From Bacillota bacterium (GTDB lineage Bacteria > Bacillota > UBA4882 > UBA10575): a stretch of DNA of 52,381 bases. The stretch is from assembly GCA_012735135.1 (NCBI GenBank), contig JAAYHY010000118.1:1-52381 (forward strand). The letters run 5' to 3'. The position numbers and the translations under genes were made by a program. Position 1 is the first letter of the stretch; every line of letters starts with the position of its first letter. Shown in pieces: positions 34,180 to 42,986 of the stretch. The notes under the pieces were generated by a model, which saw only the letters and a list, made by a program, of their open reading frames with translations, was not told where the DNA came from and ran no database searches.

Positions 34180-35535
34180 TCATATCCCCAGGATAACAGT
34201 GGCAATCCGGAAATAAATCAGTAAAGACAAAGCGTCTACAATCGTCGTGATGAAGGGGCTGGCCATCACTACCGGATCAAAACCCGCCCTTTGAGCCAAC
34301 ATGGGCAGGACGCACCCGGTCAACTTCGCCACAAAGACCGTTGACATCAGGGTCAGGCAGATCACAAAGGCCACCATCAGGCCAACCTGATCAAAGAGCA
34401 TGAGCTTGGCAAAGTTGAAGACCGCCAGGGTAACACCGGCCAAAAGGGCGACTCTAATCTCTTTCCAAACAATCCGGAAAAGATCACGAAACTCCAACTC
34501 ATGCAAGGAAAGACCACGAATAATCGTGACCGACGTTTGGCTGCCCGAATTACCGCCGGTATCCATCAGCATAGGGATATAAGCCGTTAACAAGACATAA
34601 GTCTTTAAGGCATTCTCAAAGTGATTAATAATTAACCCGGTAAAAGTAGCGGAGATCATTAATAGCAAAAGCCAAGGGATACGGCTTTTCCAGATTTCCA
34701 GGACAGATTTTTTTAAGTAAGGCCGGTCGGTCGGCGTAATCGCCGCCATCTTTTCAAAGTCCTCGGTGGTCGCCTCCTGCAATACATCAAGGGCATCATC
34801 CACGGTGACAATCCCAACCAGCCGATTCTCCCCATCGACGACCGGAAGCACGGTTAAATCATACTTGGCAAACATTTTCGCCACCGTCTCCTGGTCTTCG
34901 GTGGTCCGCACCGACACTACATACCGGTTCATTATATCTTCAATCCGGTCGTGCTCCCCGGCGAGAATAAGCGTGCGGATGGAAACAACCCCGATCAAGC
35001 GCCTTCCATCATCCGTCACATAGCAGACATTAATGGTCTCGCTATTAAGCCCAAGCTGCCGGATGCGCTTGAGCGCGTCGGTCACCGACATCTGCGCGCG
35101 GAGACTGACAAACTCCGTTGTCATAATACTCCCGGCAGAATCTTCCGGGTACTTCAGGATCTCATTGATCTGCCGGCGGGTTTCCGGATCAGCCTGCCTA
35201 AGAATACGCTTAACCACATTGGCCGGCATCTCCTCAATTAACGCCGCCACATCATCCACGTAAAGCTCGTTGACAACCTCCTGCAACTCGGCATCGGTAA
35301 AGCCTTGGATCAAAAGGTGTTGTTGGTCGCTGTCCATCTCGACAAAAGTCTCAGCGGCTAAATCTTTCGGCAATAACCGGAAAACCAAGGGCAGGTTTTT
35401 TTCGGATAATTCGTTAAAGAGCGCGGCAATGTCCGCCGGCTGCATAGTAGTGAGAATATCTCGTAGGTGCTGAAAGCTTTTCTCCGCAATCAGCGTAAGA
35501 ACGGTCTTATTGAGATCAGTATAAACTTCCGCCAT
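34180..35535 (-). CDS. mgtE: magnesium transporter MgtE
   Basis: This 451-residue Mg2+ channel has the full family architecture. The MgtE N-terminal superhelical domain spans about residues 20-130 (DIAALFNELSEKNLPLVFRLLPKDLAAETF). Two CBS domains span about 135-255 (TEFVSLRAQMSVTDALKRI, VVDGENRLVGIVTVDDALDVL). The C-terminal part has five transmembrane helices with the selectivity segment MDTGGNSGSQTSVTIIRGL near residue 328. The cytoplasmic domains close the channel when Mg2+ is high. ATG with GAGAGGAG upstream. A long structured leader with alternative terminator pairing precedes it, so transcription attenuation is likely. A fragment matching its last 35 codons recurs at 43.2 kb. Confidence 0.95.
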   Translation of the reverse strand: MAEVYTDLNKTVLTLIAEKSFQHLRDILTTMQPADIAALFNELSEKNLPLVFRLLPKDLAAETFVEMDSDQQHLLIQGFTDAELQEVVNELYVDDVAALIEEMPANVVKRILRQADPETRRQINEILKYPEDSAGSIMTTEFVSLRAQMSVTDALKRIRQLGLNSETINVCYVTDDGRRLIGVVSIRTLILAGEHDRIEDIMNRYVVSVRTTEDQETVAKMFAKYDLTVLPVVDGENRLVGIVTVDDALDVLQEATTEDFEKMAAITPTDRPYLKKSVLEIWKSRIPWLLLLMISATFTGLIINHFENALKTYVLLTAYIPMLMDTGGNSGSQTSVTIIRGLSLHELEFRDLFRIVWKEIRVALLAGVTLAVFNFAKLMLFDQVGLMVAFVICLTLMSTVFVAKLTGCVLPMLAQRAGFDPVVMASPFITTIVDALSLLIYFRIATVILGI

Positions 35536-35544
35536 TGGTCTTTT

Positions 35545-35725
35545 CTCCTCTCTGTAGGTGTTTTAAAAAAGCCGTTAATGTGTTACCTCTTTAGAACAGG
35601 AGTAAGACACAATTAGGCTGAAGCCTCAATGAAAAGTGGACGCTGCGGTAGCAAAAGTCCATTCACGATGGCTTCGGCCTAAAGTTGTGCCATTACTACT
35701 GTCAGCGTCCATTCTTTTCACCTCA
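35545..35725 (-). ncRNA. structured mgtE leader RNA with interleaved helices and switchable terminator (riboswitch-like)
   Basis: In transcript order the leader contains B' (TGGACGCTG, 35711-35703), A' (CACAACTTTAGGCCGAAGCC, 35689-35670), B (CAGCGTCCA, 35645-35637) and A (GGCTTCAGCCTAATTGTG, 35625-35608). B' pairs with B over nine bases and A' with A over about 17 with small irregularities; the two helices are interleaved, as in a pseudoknot. The A strand can instead pair with the later CACATTAACGGCT, giving a hairpin followed by six T residues (35570-35565), just ahead of the mgtE ribosome site. This is an antiterminator/terminator layout. It does not show the M-box core I know. Ligand and class are unknown. 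Confidence 0.6.
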
Positions 35726-35752
35726 CTTTTTTGATGGAATCGAACCCCGGCC

Positions 35753-36208
35753 TTACCGTAAGGCTTCAAGATTTATGTGCATTTTTCCTTTAACAACAAA
35801 GACCACCGCAAGCAAAGAGATTATTACTGATTGGACTAAAAAATAATGGGGATTCATCTTGGGAGCAGATTCCATCCCCGTCAGGGTTATATCAGTCAGA
35901 AAGATGACACTACTATTGTTCATCATCCAGTGGAAAAAAACCCCTGCCAAAAACAGATTCTTATTGCTCTTTATGTAATACCATGTCATTATAATCGAAA
36001 AACTAATTTCAGTAATGATAAACAAAGGGTAATACTTAAGGCCAATAGCGTATTGAGAAGAACCGGGCCGGTAAAACTCCACTAAATGCCAAGCGCCAAA
36101 ATATGCCCCGACAATTATTGAGCTTATGAACGGGGATTTTGTTCTCAACAATACCGGCAGCACATAGCCACGAAGGACCGAATACTTCTTCCAATATGGG
36201 ACCACCAA
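35753..36208 (-). pseudogene. CPBP-family membrane protease, C-terminal part (frameshifted)
   Basis: The frame continues the CPBP (CAAX-like) protease begun at 36572. From the join it reads LRGYVLPVLLRTKSPF (end of the EExxxR motif), IIVGAYFGAWHLVEFYRP (second motif histidine), then a third helix with FFHWMMNNSS (third motif His/Asn). The first eight residues of this frame are out-of-frame reading. It differs by one extra base from the upstream frame near 36180. Confidence 0.75.
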
Positions 36209-41609: not shown

Positions 41610-41918
41610 ATAATGGTTAAAGGCGAGGAAAGGGAAAAGTAAGTATAAAAAGTTTTCCCAGCGAGCCGGGGACGGTGGGAGCCCGGTAAAACGGTTTATA
41701 CCCAAGTTCTCCCTGGAGCTACCGGTTGAATACAACACCTCTGTTGTTATTAGACCGTGTCGGTTTCTCCAACCGTTATCCCGGGAGGGCATATCGGAAA
41801 AAACTGCCGATCAGTATTTTTCCCGTATGCTTCAATGAGTGGTTTCCTTTTCAGGATTCAAGTTGGGTGGTACCGCGTGGATTATAACTCCTCGTCCCGA
41901 TCGGGACGGGGAGTTTTT
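41610..41918 (+). ncRNA. T-box leader controlling DAHP synthase
   Basis: Uncharged tRNA binds this leader and prevents termination. Visible parts are the stem I apical region (AGCGAGCCGGGGACGGTGG and GAGCCCGG at 41660-41686), a specifier candidate TGG at 41714-41716 followed by A, and the antiterminator box TTGGGTGGTACCGCG at 41863-41877. The terminator ACTCC-CGTCCCGA/TCGGGACG-GGAGT with TTTTTT closes it at 41887-41918. A tryptophan specifier fits an aromatic-pathway gene, but UUC (Phe, near 41707) cannot be ruled out without modelling stem I. Confidence 0.9.
41887..41918 (+). terminator. T-box regulated terminator
   Basis: ACTCC-CGTCCCGA and TCGGGACG-GGAGT form a near-perfect stem followed by six T residues, immediately after the T-box antiterminator sequence. 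Confidence 0.92.
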
Positions 41919-41972
41919 TATTTAAGTAAACACATGCGGAAAAGAAACTTTTCACCAGAGGGAGGTATCTTT

Positions 41973-42986
41973 ATGATTATTGTGATGCAGACCGGGGCAA
42001 CAAAAGACCAAATCCAACAGGTTGAGCATGAACTCGGCAACCTGGGCTATAAAACCCACCCCATTTACGGGGAGGTAAAAACCGTCATTGCGGCGGTTGG
42101 CGACCAAAGATTACCCAACCCGGAACTGATCACCAGTCTCCCCGGGGTCGAAGGGATTATGCCTATTATGAAACCCTACAAACTGGTAAGCAGGGAACTA
42201 AAACCGGCCGGAACCACCATCCAAATTGACGATTTAACCATCGGCGGCCGGGAAATCGTCATCATGGCCGGTCCCTGCGCCGTCGAAAACGAAGAGGTCT
42301 TTTTTGAAACCGCCCGTCAAGTGAAGGAAGCCGGCGCCAAAATCCTCCGGGGCGGCGCCTATAAGCCCCGTACTTCCCCCTATTCCTTCCAAGGACTTGA
42401 GAAGGAAGGCCTCAAAATGCTGGCGCAGGCCCGCCAGGAAACGGGACTGAAGATTGTGACCGAGGTGGTAGACACCCGGGATGTGGAAGTGGTCGCCAAG
42501 TATGCCGATATTCTGCAAATCGGCGCCCGCAATATGCAAAATTTCCGCCTGCTCCGGGAAGCGGGAGCCAGCGGCAAACCAATCCTGTTGAAAAGGGGGC
42601 TCTCGGCCACCATTGAGGAATGGCTGATGGCGGCCGAGTACATTCTCTCCTCCGGCAATTCCCAGGTCATCCTCTGTGAAAGGGGAATCCGCACCTTTGA
42701 AACGGCCACCAGAAATACCATTGACCTGAGTGCCATTCCGGTGGTCAAGGAACTCTCCCATCTCCCCATTGTCGCCGACCCCAGCCACGCCACGGGTTCC
42801 TGGAAATACGTGGATGCGCTGGCCAAAGCGGCGGTGGCGGCGGGCGCCGACGGATTACTCATCGAAGTACACAGCGATCCGGCCCGGGCCTTATGCGACG
42901 GGCCCCAGTCCCTCCGTCCCGACCGCTTCGCCCACCTGGTCCAAGAGCTAAAAGCGTTGGCGACCGCCGTGAACCGCCGGCTCTAA
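41973..42986 (+). CDS. aroF: 3-deoxy-7-phosphoheptulonate (DAHP) synthase, AroF/AroA(G) type
   Basis: This 337-residue enzyme condenses phosphoenolpyruvate and erythrose 4-phosphate, the first step of the shikimate pathway. An N-terminal ferredoxin-like regulatory domain spans residues 1-70 ([21 protein letters not shown]). The TIM barrel has [78 protein letters not shown] and [11 protein letters not shown], all typical active-site segments of type I-beta enzymes. The ATG at 41973 has GGAGG seven bases upstream and gives the standard length; earlier in-frame starts would lie within the T-box leader. Expression depends on tRNA charging through the leader. Confidence 0.96.

Follow-up and report, generated by a model that had tools for sequence, protein, structure and literature searches.

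The window, i.e., the whole stretch of 52,381 nucleotides of Bacillota DNA analyzed here, carries a magnesium channel gene, mgtE, whose leader raises the question of how the channel is regulated. The first-pass annotation had described two crossing helices and a switchable terminator in this leader and had proposed a metal- or metabolite-sensing riboswitch of unfamiliar class, or a strongly diverged M-box. We argue instead that the leader is probably a ribosome-operated switch of mgtE, on which ribosomes translating a short upstream ORF (uORF) would abort in its first codons at low Mg2+. The elements of the locus are listed in the order of transcription.

35718 to 35727, minus strand: Shine-Dalgarno (SD) sequence of the uORF, AGTGAGGTGA; invariant in six aligned sequences
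35626 to 35712, minus strand: uORF of 28 codons, MDADSSNGTTLGRSHREWTFATAASTFH, with a TGA stop; frame and stop kept in seven genomes
35703 to 35711, minus strand: B', the uORF start region, predicted OFF-fold partner of B; 97% pairing of this helix in six sequences
35670 to 35697, minus strand: A', about codons 6 to 15 of the uORF, partner of A in the ON fold according to folding
35631 to 35646, minus strand: B, the uORF tail GCAGCGTCCACTTTTC, partner of the uORF SD and start in the OFF fold according to folding and alignment
35601 to 35625, minus strand: A, the element directly past the uORF stop, ON partner of A' according to folding
35599 to 35608, minus strand: anti-SD GTCTTACTCC, the 3' end of A, predicted OFF partner of the mgtE SD; invariant in six aligned sequences, helix 100% paired
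35565 to 35619, minus strand: weak terminator-like alternative pairing AGCCTAATTGTG with CACATTAACGGCTTTTTT; not conserved
35538 to 35548, minus strand: mgtE SD and next bases, GGAGAAAAGAC, sequestered in the OFF fold according to folding and alignment
34180 to 35535, minus strand: mgtE, with MgtE_N, CBS and MgtE domains (Pfam)

Folding of positions 35545 to 35735 gave -61.2 kcal/mol, against a mean of -43.1 for shuffled sequences (z = -4.34), and none of 200 dinucleotide shuffles folded as well. The helices described earlier are real. Their crossing order, B'-A'-B-A, is present on the minus strand at the position claimed: B', TGGACGCTG, forms nine pairs with CAGCGTCCA (35637 to 35645) in B, and A' pairs with A. 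The local hairpin reported in the leader was likewise found on the minus strand, as were both copies of the repeat GAATGGAC (35707 to 35714 and 35657 to 35664). Two features go beyond that account: B' is where the uORF starts, and the mgtE SD is a further possible partner of A. Within the close family, the 5' part of the leader hardly varies. Just upstream of the uORF SD, GCCGGGGTTCGATTCCATC (35731 to 35770, minus strand) resembles the end of a tRNA T-arm; ARAGORN found no tRNA in the window. The same genome holds three MgtE matches and two further MgtE_N fragments at contig edges (G000:C15, C154), the two other MgtE channel matches being short frames near a contig end.

The SD, frame and stop of the uORF are kept in the orthologous leaders of six other genomes (G003, G004, G007, G008, G010 and G013). 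Single-base codon differences, summed over pairs of the six ORFs of equal length, were synonymous in 73 cases and nonsynonymous in 38 in the uORF frame, as opposed to 23/64 and 25/72 in the two other frames of the same sequences; the seventh ORF, that of G008, differs by one whole codon. Residues 1 to 9 of the peptide are identical in all seven genomes. From this coding constraint we infer that the uORF is transcribed and translated, and we consider it highly probable that it acts in cis. In the window, the peptide begins with MDADSS, with acidic residues within the first five codons, behind its own SD and upstream of an Mg2+ importer gene. This acidic N-terminus with Ser(AGT) codons is the proposed abort site.

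We analyzed how the uORF relates to the fold. Folding the window leader together with the mgtE SD gave the OFF structure as the energy minimum (-64.5 kcal/mol), in which the uORF SD and start pair with the uORF tail, and TTGTGTCTTACTCC pairs with GGAGAAAAGACCAA. When the SD region is left out of the folding, the ON alternative appears, with a long A'/A hairpin (-61.2 kcal/mol). By eye, the same OFF fold was obtained for four of the five other aligned leaders, and the G003 sequence, which ends before the mgtE start codon, gave an ON-type fold. Across the six aligned sequences, pairing is complete (100%) in the SD helix and reaches 97% in the start/tail helix and 92.5% in the ON helix, against 36 to 54% for slid versions of the helices; most true pairs never vary. 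Covariation in related mgtE leaders, suggested at the outset as a check, was weak within the close family: the helices are near-invariant there, and most covariation measures did not exceed those of shuffled controls. Between lineages, partners change together, to GTACC/GGTAC in L082, CCTTGCTC/GGAGACAAGG in L114, GGCAGTACCT/GAGGTATTGC in L135 and GGTCTTGCTCC/GGAGGAAGAC in L060, and counterparts of the anti-SD are present in the leaders of other lineages.

The two competing pairings were then assessed in 46 of 57 leaders, those with a gap of 40 to 130 nt, collapsed to 23 clusters. Relative to cross-locus controls not matched for composition, the pairing of the uORF with the element was stronger (-25.4 versus -20.5 kcal/mol, p = 1.6e-4), and so was that of the element with the SD (-16.0 versus -12.8 kcal/mol, p = 6.5e-6). 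When the element was dinucleotide-shuffled as a control, the 0.05 level was reached in only 9 of the 23 clusters for the uORF arm and in 11 for the SD arm. The two pairings overlap on the element by at least 4 nt in 20 of the 23 clusters. A switch between two exclusive computed folds, one of which hides the mgtE SD, is therefore likely. The start/tail helix is strong in the window family; by eye it is inconsistent in other groups, and we dropped it as a general feature. Since B'/B and A'/A occur in alternative minimum-energy folds, we prefer an exclusive switch to one combined pseudoknot, which seems less likely and explains less. The original reading was upheld insofar as it saw in the region a metal-linked, switchable leader with crossing helices that controls mgtE in cis.

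These features suggest the following scheme. The short ORF with its acidic, AGU-serine N-terminus (MDADSS) would be translated first. With sufficient Mg2+, ribosomes would read the whole uORF, strip A' from A and finish on B; upon such read-through the anti-SD in A would fold onto the mgtE SD, turning mgtE off. With low Mg2+, ribosomes initiating on the uORF would be destabilized and drop off within about six codons, so that B' would be held open, the A' core would not be entered, and A' would capture A. Trapping of A by A' would leave the mgtE SD free, and MgtE would be made. The footprint of a ribosome at initiation spans about six codons from the start of its ORF. In the uORF these correspond to the conserved MDADSS stretch and B', and the A' core begins just beyond them. 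Because the ribosome footprint ends before the A' core, early drop-off would keep the OFF helix open and A' free, favoring the ON state. RNA without ribosomes would adopt the OFF state, this being the minimum-energy fold. Judging from the genes next to these uORFs and from the mgtQ and mgtL precedents, Mg2+ is the likely signal. By the same analogy we favor early abort, rather than stalling, as the event, and we infer the sign of the response.

Mg2+ sensing by ribosome abort has been described for enterobacterial mgtL and mgtQ (excerpts of PMC8092293 and PMC11282234). In the excerpts of PMC8092293, Salmonella mgtQ has Asp2 and Glu5, its RNA forms stem-loop 2:3 or stem-loop 3:4, the latter holding the mgtB ribosome-binding site (RBS), and mgtQ translation is inversely tied to translation of the importer. 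The window leader as computed here resembles that system in its short ORF, acidic near-start residues and two exclusive folds, one of which sequesters the importer RBS. Unlike the uORFs described here, mgtQ as presented there belongs to Gammaproteobacteria, has 8 codons, is intergenic in an operon and serves one transporter gene, whereas our uORF has 28 codons (19 to 50 in the listed loci before importers of the pattern search below) and its counterparts occur in Bacillota before MgtE, MgtA, CorA and NRAMP genes. The Ser(AGU) signature found here is not mentioned for mgtQ in those excerpts. As to mgtL, the EPDP motif of its peptide destabilizes the ribosome at low Mg2+, and ribosome dissociation switches mgtA on (excerpts of PMC11282234, which cites Chadani 2017). 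The uORF and mgtL of Escherichia coli and Salmonella share an acidic N-terminus upstream of an Mg2+ importer. In contrast, the output of mgtL is Rho-dependent termination according to the same excerpts, and its motif contains proline; the window peptide has no proline and only two acidic residues near its start, a milder feature than EPDP. The likeness to mgtL and mgtQ is one of working, and we do not claim descent from the enterobacterial ORFs.

The same uORF and fold switch could also operate if the ribosome stalled or paused instead of aborting, or if another signal such as ATP or pH were read. By the coordinates and usual footprint sizes, a ribosome held on codons 1 to 3 or 4 would likewise prevent B'/B pairing while most of A' stayed available, and EttA acts on acidic pauses in MgtL (excerpts of PMC11282234). 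The N-termini of our uORFs, however, resemble those of the abort-type mgtL and mgtQ. Classical arrest peptides hold on to the ribosome tunnel; with six residues, the nascent chain would not be long enough to do so. We thus regard stalling, or another signal, as unlikely.

We searched for similar uORFs in other genomes. Blastn with the leader alone gave matches in 14 of 149 genomes; seven of the matches were short and fell outside the close family. Among these seven, two are uORFs, one (L011, MEADSS...) before CorA and one (L012, MEDGSS...) before an MgtA-type P-ATPase; L014, considered as a further one, is by eye the start of a spore-protein-like gene. A scan of the phylum for an SD, a start codon, Asp/Glu, any residue, Asp/Glu/Gly, AGT and AGT hit 11 of 398 genomes, compared with 2 of 398 for the reversed pattern. 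Five of the matches lie outside the window family, three before MgtE or MgtA and two, in sister genomes, at the start of a TetR-like gene.

The pattern M-[DE]-x-[DG]-Ser(AGT)-Ser(AGT) behind an SD was next run against a collection of 84,980 species genomes and matched at least 80 loci. Among the matches listed, 10 fall inside long ORFs or at their starts (L065, L069, L084, L106, L124, L129 and L137; L064 and L091, in the TetR-like gene of L050/L051; and L075, which runs off its locus and was classed by eye) and were set aside, and 70 mark the start of ORFs no longer than 60 codons, one with only 2 codons. Of these 70 listed short ORFs, 64 lie before importer genes: mgtE in 51 cases, mgtA in 8 (once behind an mgtC-like ORF), corA in 1, NRAMP in 2, and a MgtE_N/CBS gene directly followed by NRAMP in 2. 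The other six comprise two that end at the locus edge before any gene and four of other kinds; L097, L119 and L120 were rejected as short frames with no importer behind. The channel domain lies within 45 of the 51 listed mgtE loci, five being cut by the locus end and L125 being assigned via the same contig in G008; the window family contributes 5 of the 51. By taxon name, the 64 listed loci belong to Bacillota, mostly Clostridia, with Pectinatus and Trichococcus, except L086 (Actinobacteria) and L082 (Candidatus Apopatocola). The commonest N-terminus is M-D-A-G-S-S-[STN]-G, of which the search itself fixes or restricts residues 2 and 4 to 6; the sequence after it is variable.

Some loci of this search are of interest in themselves. 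In Propionibacterium cyclohexanicum (L105, around 2608), MDADSSSPRSTFHSSHPVRCTLD (MDADSS) precedes a two-part ABC permease (BPD_transp_1), either by chance or as an unrecognized Mg2+ transporter; it was counted as not Mg2+. In Clostridium sp. OS1-26 (L092, around 4787), an MDAGSS leader ORF is followed by an mgtC-like ORF and then by an mgtA match. For NRAMP, the link is based on four loci of the pattern search: L086 and L132, and L061 and L072 with NRAMP as second gene. A MgtE_N/CBS protein without the MgtE channel domain is directly followed by NRAMP in L061, L072 (where it carries a PRC barrel by Pfam), L139, L140, L144, L157, L160, L162 and L164, as if the sensor half of MgtE had been coupled to an NRAMP importer.

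A further survey did not use the motif. Genes were chosen by protein family, and an SD-led ORF of 8 to 60 codons with Asp or Glu at codon 2 was sought within about 350 nt upstream. Such an ORF was found at 18 of 42 MgtE/MgtE_N, 3 of 17 MgtA and 13 of 25 CorA loci, but at none of 11 DPGN-type NRAMP, 13 other P-ATPase and 30 TrkH loci, i.e., at 34/84 versus 0/54 (p = 1.6e-9), under a rule set after the first MgtE loci had been seen, with MgtA, TrkH and the other P-ATPases run simultaneously and CorA and NRAMP fetched and tested later. The reverse strand of the same importer regions gave 0 of 84; that of one TrkH region has an Asp/Glu frame. By the rule, 24 of 42 MgtE/MgtE_N, 14 of 17 MgtA and 12 of 25 CorA loci are without an acidic uORF; relaxing the length and distance limits raised MgtA to 6 of 17. 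The leader peptides before CorA begin with, e.g., MDGDPGSSC, MDSGPSNGE, MDDPSQLYY and MEGDPSSQL. Among the NRAMP loci sampled, an acidic uORF was seen at 0 of 12 of the DPGN type and at 1 of 7 others, four of these seven (L240, L243, L245 and L258) being second genes behind a MgtE_N/CBS gene, with the leader further up. The link between these uORFs and several Mg2+ importer families is, like the uORF, its coding conservation and the two exclusive folds, a computational result.

For these counts the window family was reduced from seven loci to one (L018), and set-a gene repeats (L142, L143, L149, L150, L156, L163, L166 and L168), second tandem mgtE copies without an acidic uORF (L141 and L159), a locus in which no frame was located (L145), near-copies (L263 and L236) and partial or fused CorA matches (L283 to L285 and L287) were left out. 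Adding L141, L159 and L236 as negatives gives 34/86 versus 0/55 (p = 1.9e-9). Seven members of the MgtE set (L139, L140, L144, L157, L160, L162 and L164) are MgtE_N/CBS genes with NRAMP behind them and not MgtE channels; in L144, L157, L160 and L162 the gene start was placed inside the gene, and the region scored is not the true leader. L044, L045 and L260 satisfy the rule and were retained, though unconvincing on inspection; L028 (MDIDQSPVP) fails its SD test.

These comparisons bear on the proposal of a new class of ligand-binding riboswitch, for a metal or a metabolite, whose aptamer would contain an ORF by chance. The strong fold, the crossing helices and the near-invariant 5' part in the close family all agree with it. 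Across lineages, however, only the uORF start (the first six to eight codons) and, in many cases, the anti-SD are shared, along with an open frame and its stop; the remainder varies. As the leader beyond the uORF start differs in sequence and length between lineages, we disfavor an aptamer. In addition, the substitutions are of the coding type, similar N-termini precede unrelated transporters, and there is no Rfam match. An aptamer of unfamiliar class, as first suggested, is thus unsupported and improbable, and the leader is probably no ligand-binding riboswitch. Another candidate RNA upstream of mgtE that includes the SD, the mgtE motif SRC-65-1, has been proposed as a riboswitch on 32 examples, all from Thioalkalivibrio; the excerpts of PMC11109978 mention no uORF for it.

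The original annotation had also predicted a switchable terminator. Strand A can indeed pair with CACATTAACGGCT before TTTTTT, but this hairpin is weak (-12.6 kcal/mol) and not conserved. Transcription attenuation as the main output would fit the runs of at least five T past the element in the window, G010 and G013, and the hairpin-plus-T elements seen by eye behind the uORF in L046 and L047. Against it, such runs are missing in three of the six aligned sequences, the stem sequence is not kept, and a simple terminator scan found none between 35400 and 36000. Moreover, in 18 of the 57 leaders examined, only 41 to 60 nt separate the uORF stop from the gene, and the SD-pairing helix lies there. 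A terminator as the conserved output of the family was thus ruled out, and a terminator switch as the main output seems improbable; as judged by sequence conservation, it is sequestration of the mgtE SD that the family retains as its output.

The serine codons of the uORFs are unusual. In 33 uORFs, none of which was selected for AGT (e.g., L041, L167, L203, L208 and L274; L026, L157, L241, L260 and the pattern loci were omitted, and L028 was added by eye), AGT accounts for 36 of 53 serine codons at positions 2 to 10 and for 8 of 61 later in the same uORFs (p = 2e-9); its share of serine codons in ORFs of at least 200 codons of the same loci is 15.8%. Position 5 is Pro in 12 of the 33. A stop in the +2 frame occurs within codons 2 to 10 in 24 of 33 uORFs, against 17 of 33 within codons 12 to 20. 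This enrichment could be taken as a sign of serine or tRNA-Ser attenuation with AGU codons as the sensor, as in amino-acid operons. Yet no run of codons for an amino acid of the downstream gene was found, these genes being for Mg2+ importers and not for serine, several uORFs (L032, L044 to L046 and L281) have no early serine, and a ribosome stalled at codon 6 would, with usual footprint sizes, cover A' and favor OFF. Serine attenuation is consequently very unlikely. Under the abort scheme, the AGU bias is not predicted by ribosome destabilization through charge alone, so that sensing here could work differently. Possible origins of the bias are weak wobble decoding, the off-frame stop, or insulation from the effect of TCN serine codons, an effect reported for Bacillus subtilis in the excerpts of PMC3862929.

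The absence of an M-box, already suspected, was borne out: cmscan detected none in the leader at the gathering threshold or at E values up to 10. Five other Rfam matches to the leader up to E 10, with E values of 3 to 8.9, all score far below their gathering thresholds. A strongly diverged M-box (ykoK) riboswitch is extremely unlikely, even though M-boxes control the same gene family, lie directly upstream of such uORFs in 6 of 17 chosen pattern loci (L135, L086, L101, L070, L066 and L114) and occur in 7 of 20 mgtE-type loci, since the model is silent on this leader and gives 78 to 147 bits for M-boxes elsewhere.

The Rfam scan that the first-pass annotation had called for gave one match at gathering score in the window, a T-box leader (109 bits) at 41617 to 41902 on the plus strand, just upstream of frame 41757 to 42986, which by eye resembles DAHP synthase. 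The M-boxes (RF00380) of the 7 mgtE-type loci, which were chosen and not random, score 132 to 147 bits. By eye, six of the seven (L139, L148, L026, L164, L032 and L158) have an acidic uORF after the M-box, that of L026 extending past the mgtE start; short M-box-like strings occur in L061, L077, L092 and L123. The M-box, a ligand-binding aptamer absent from the window leader, thus controls the same kinds of gene and sometimes directly precedes an acidic uORF; there, two Mg2+ sensors may work one after the other. For mycobacteria, the excerpts of PMC12810186 describe a translational M-box followed by a conserved uORF2 (Rv1805A), a combination said to be specific to these bacteria and to encode a peptide of unknown role. 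This system shares with our leader a conserved small ORF and N-terminus and competition among SD, anti-SD and anti-anti-SD; there uORF2 is the regulated target, whereas we read the window uORF as the sensor.

Searches of open-access PMC full text turned up no account of acidic leader ORFs before mgtE, corA or mgtA of Bacillota, or of the peptide motifs. The only text match to MDADSS among the peptide motifs searched there was in PMC5547118, whose title concerns ring degradation.

It is conceivable, though we hold it somewhat short of probable, that Bacillota, and possibly Actinomycetota, share a widespread and unrecognized Mg2+ gauge in which the ribosome is the sensor. Its drop-off at low Mg2+ from a uORF beginning M-[DE]-x-[DEGP]-(S/P/G)-S, with AGU serines, would uncover the ribosome site of MgtE, CorA, MgtA and some NRAMP genes, sometimes in tandem behind an M-box, and decoding strength (or an off-frame stop) would be read besides the charge of the nascent chain. 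If this is true, sensing at the level of codons beside charge would be a new sensing principle, and ribosome-abort logic would stand before 34 of 84 sampled Mg2+ importers of the phylum of the window and before none of 54 controls. It would provide one testable rule for the possible control of importers without an M-box, suggest a role for the small ORFs behind M-boxes, and supply a set of sequences with which to ask why near-start AGU serine codons matter.
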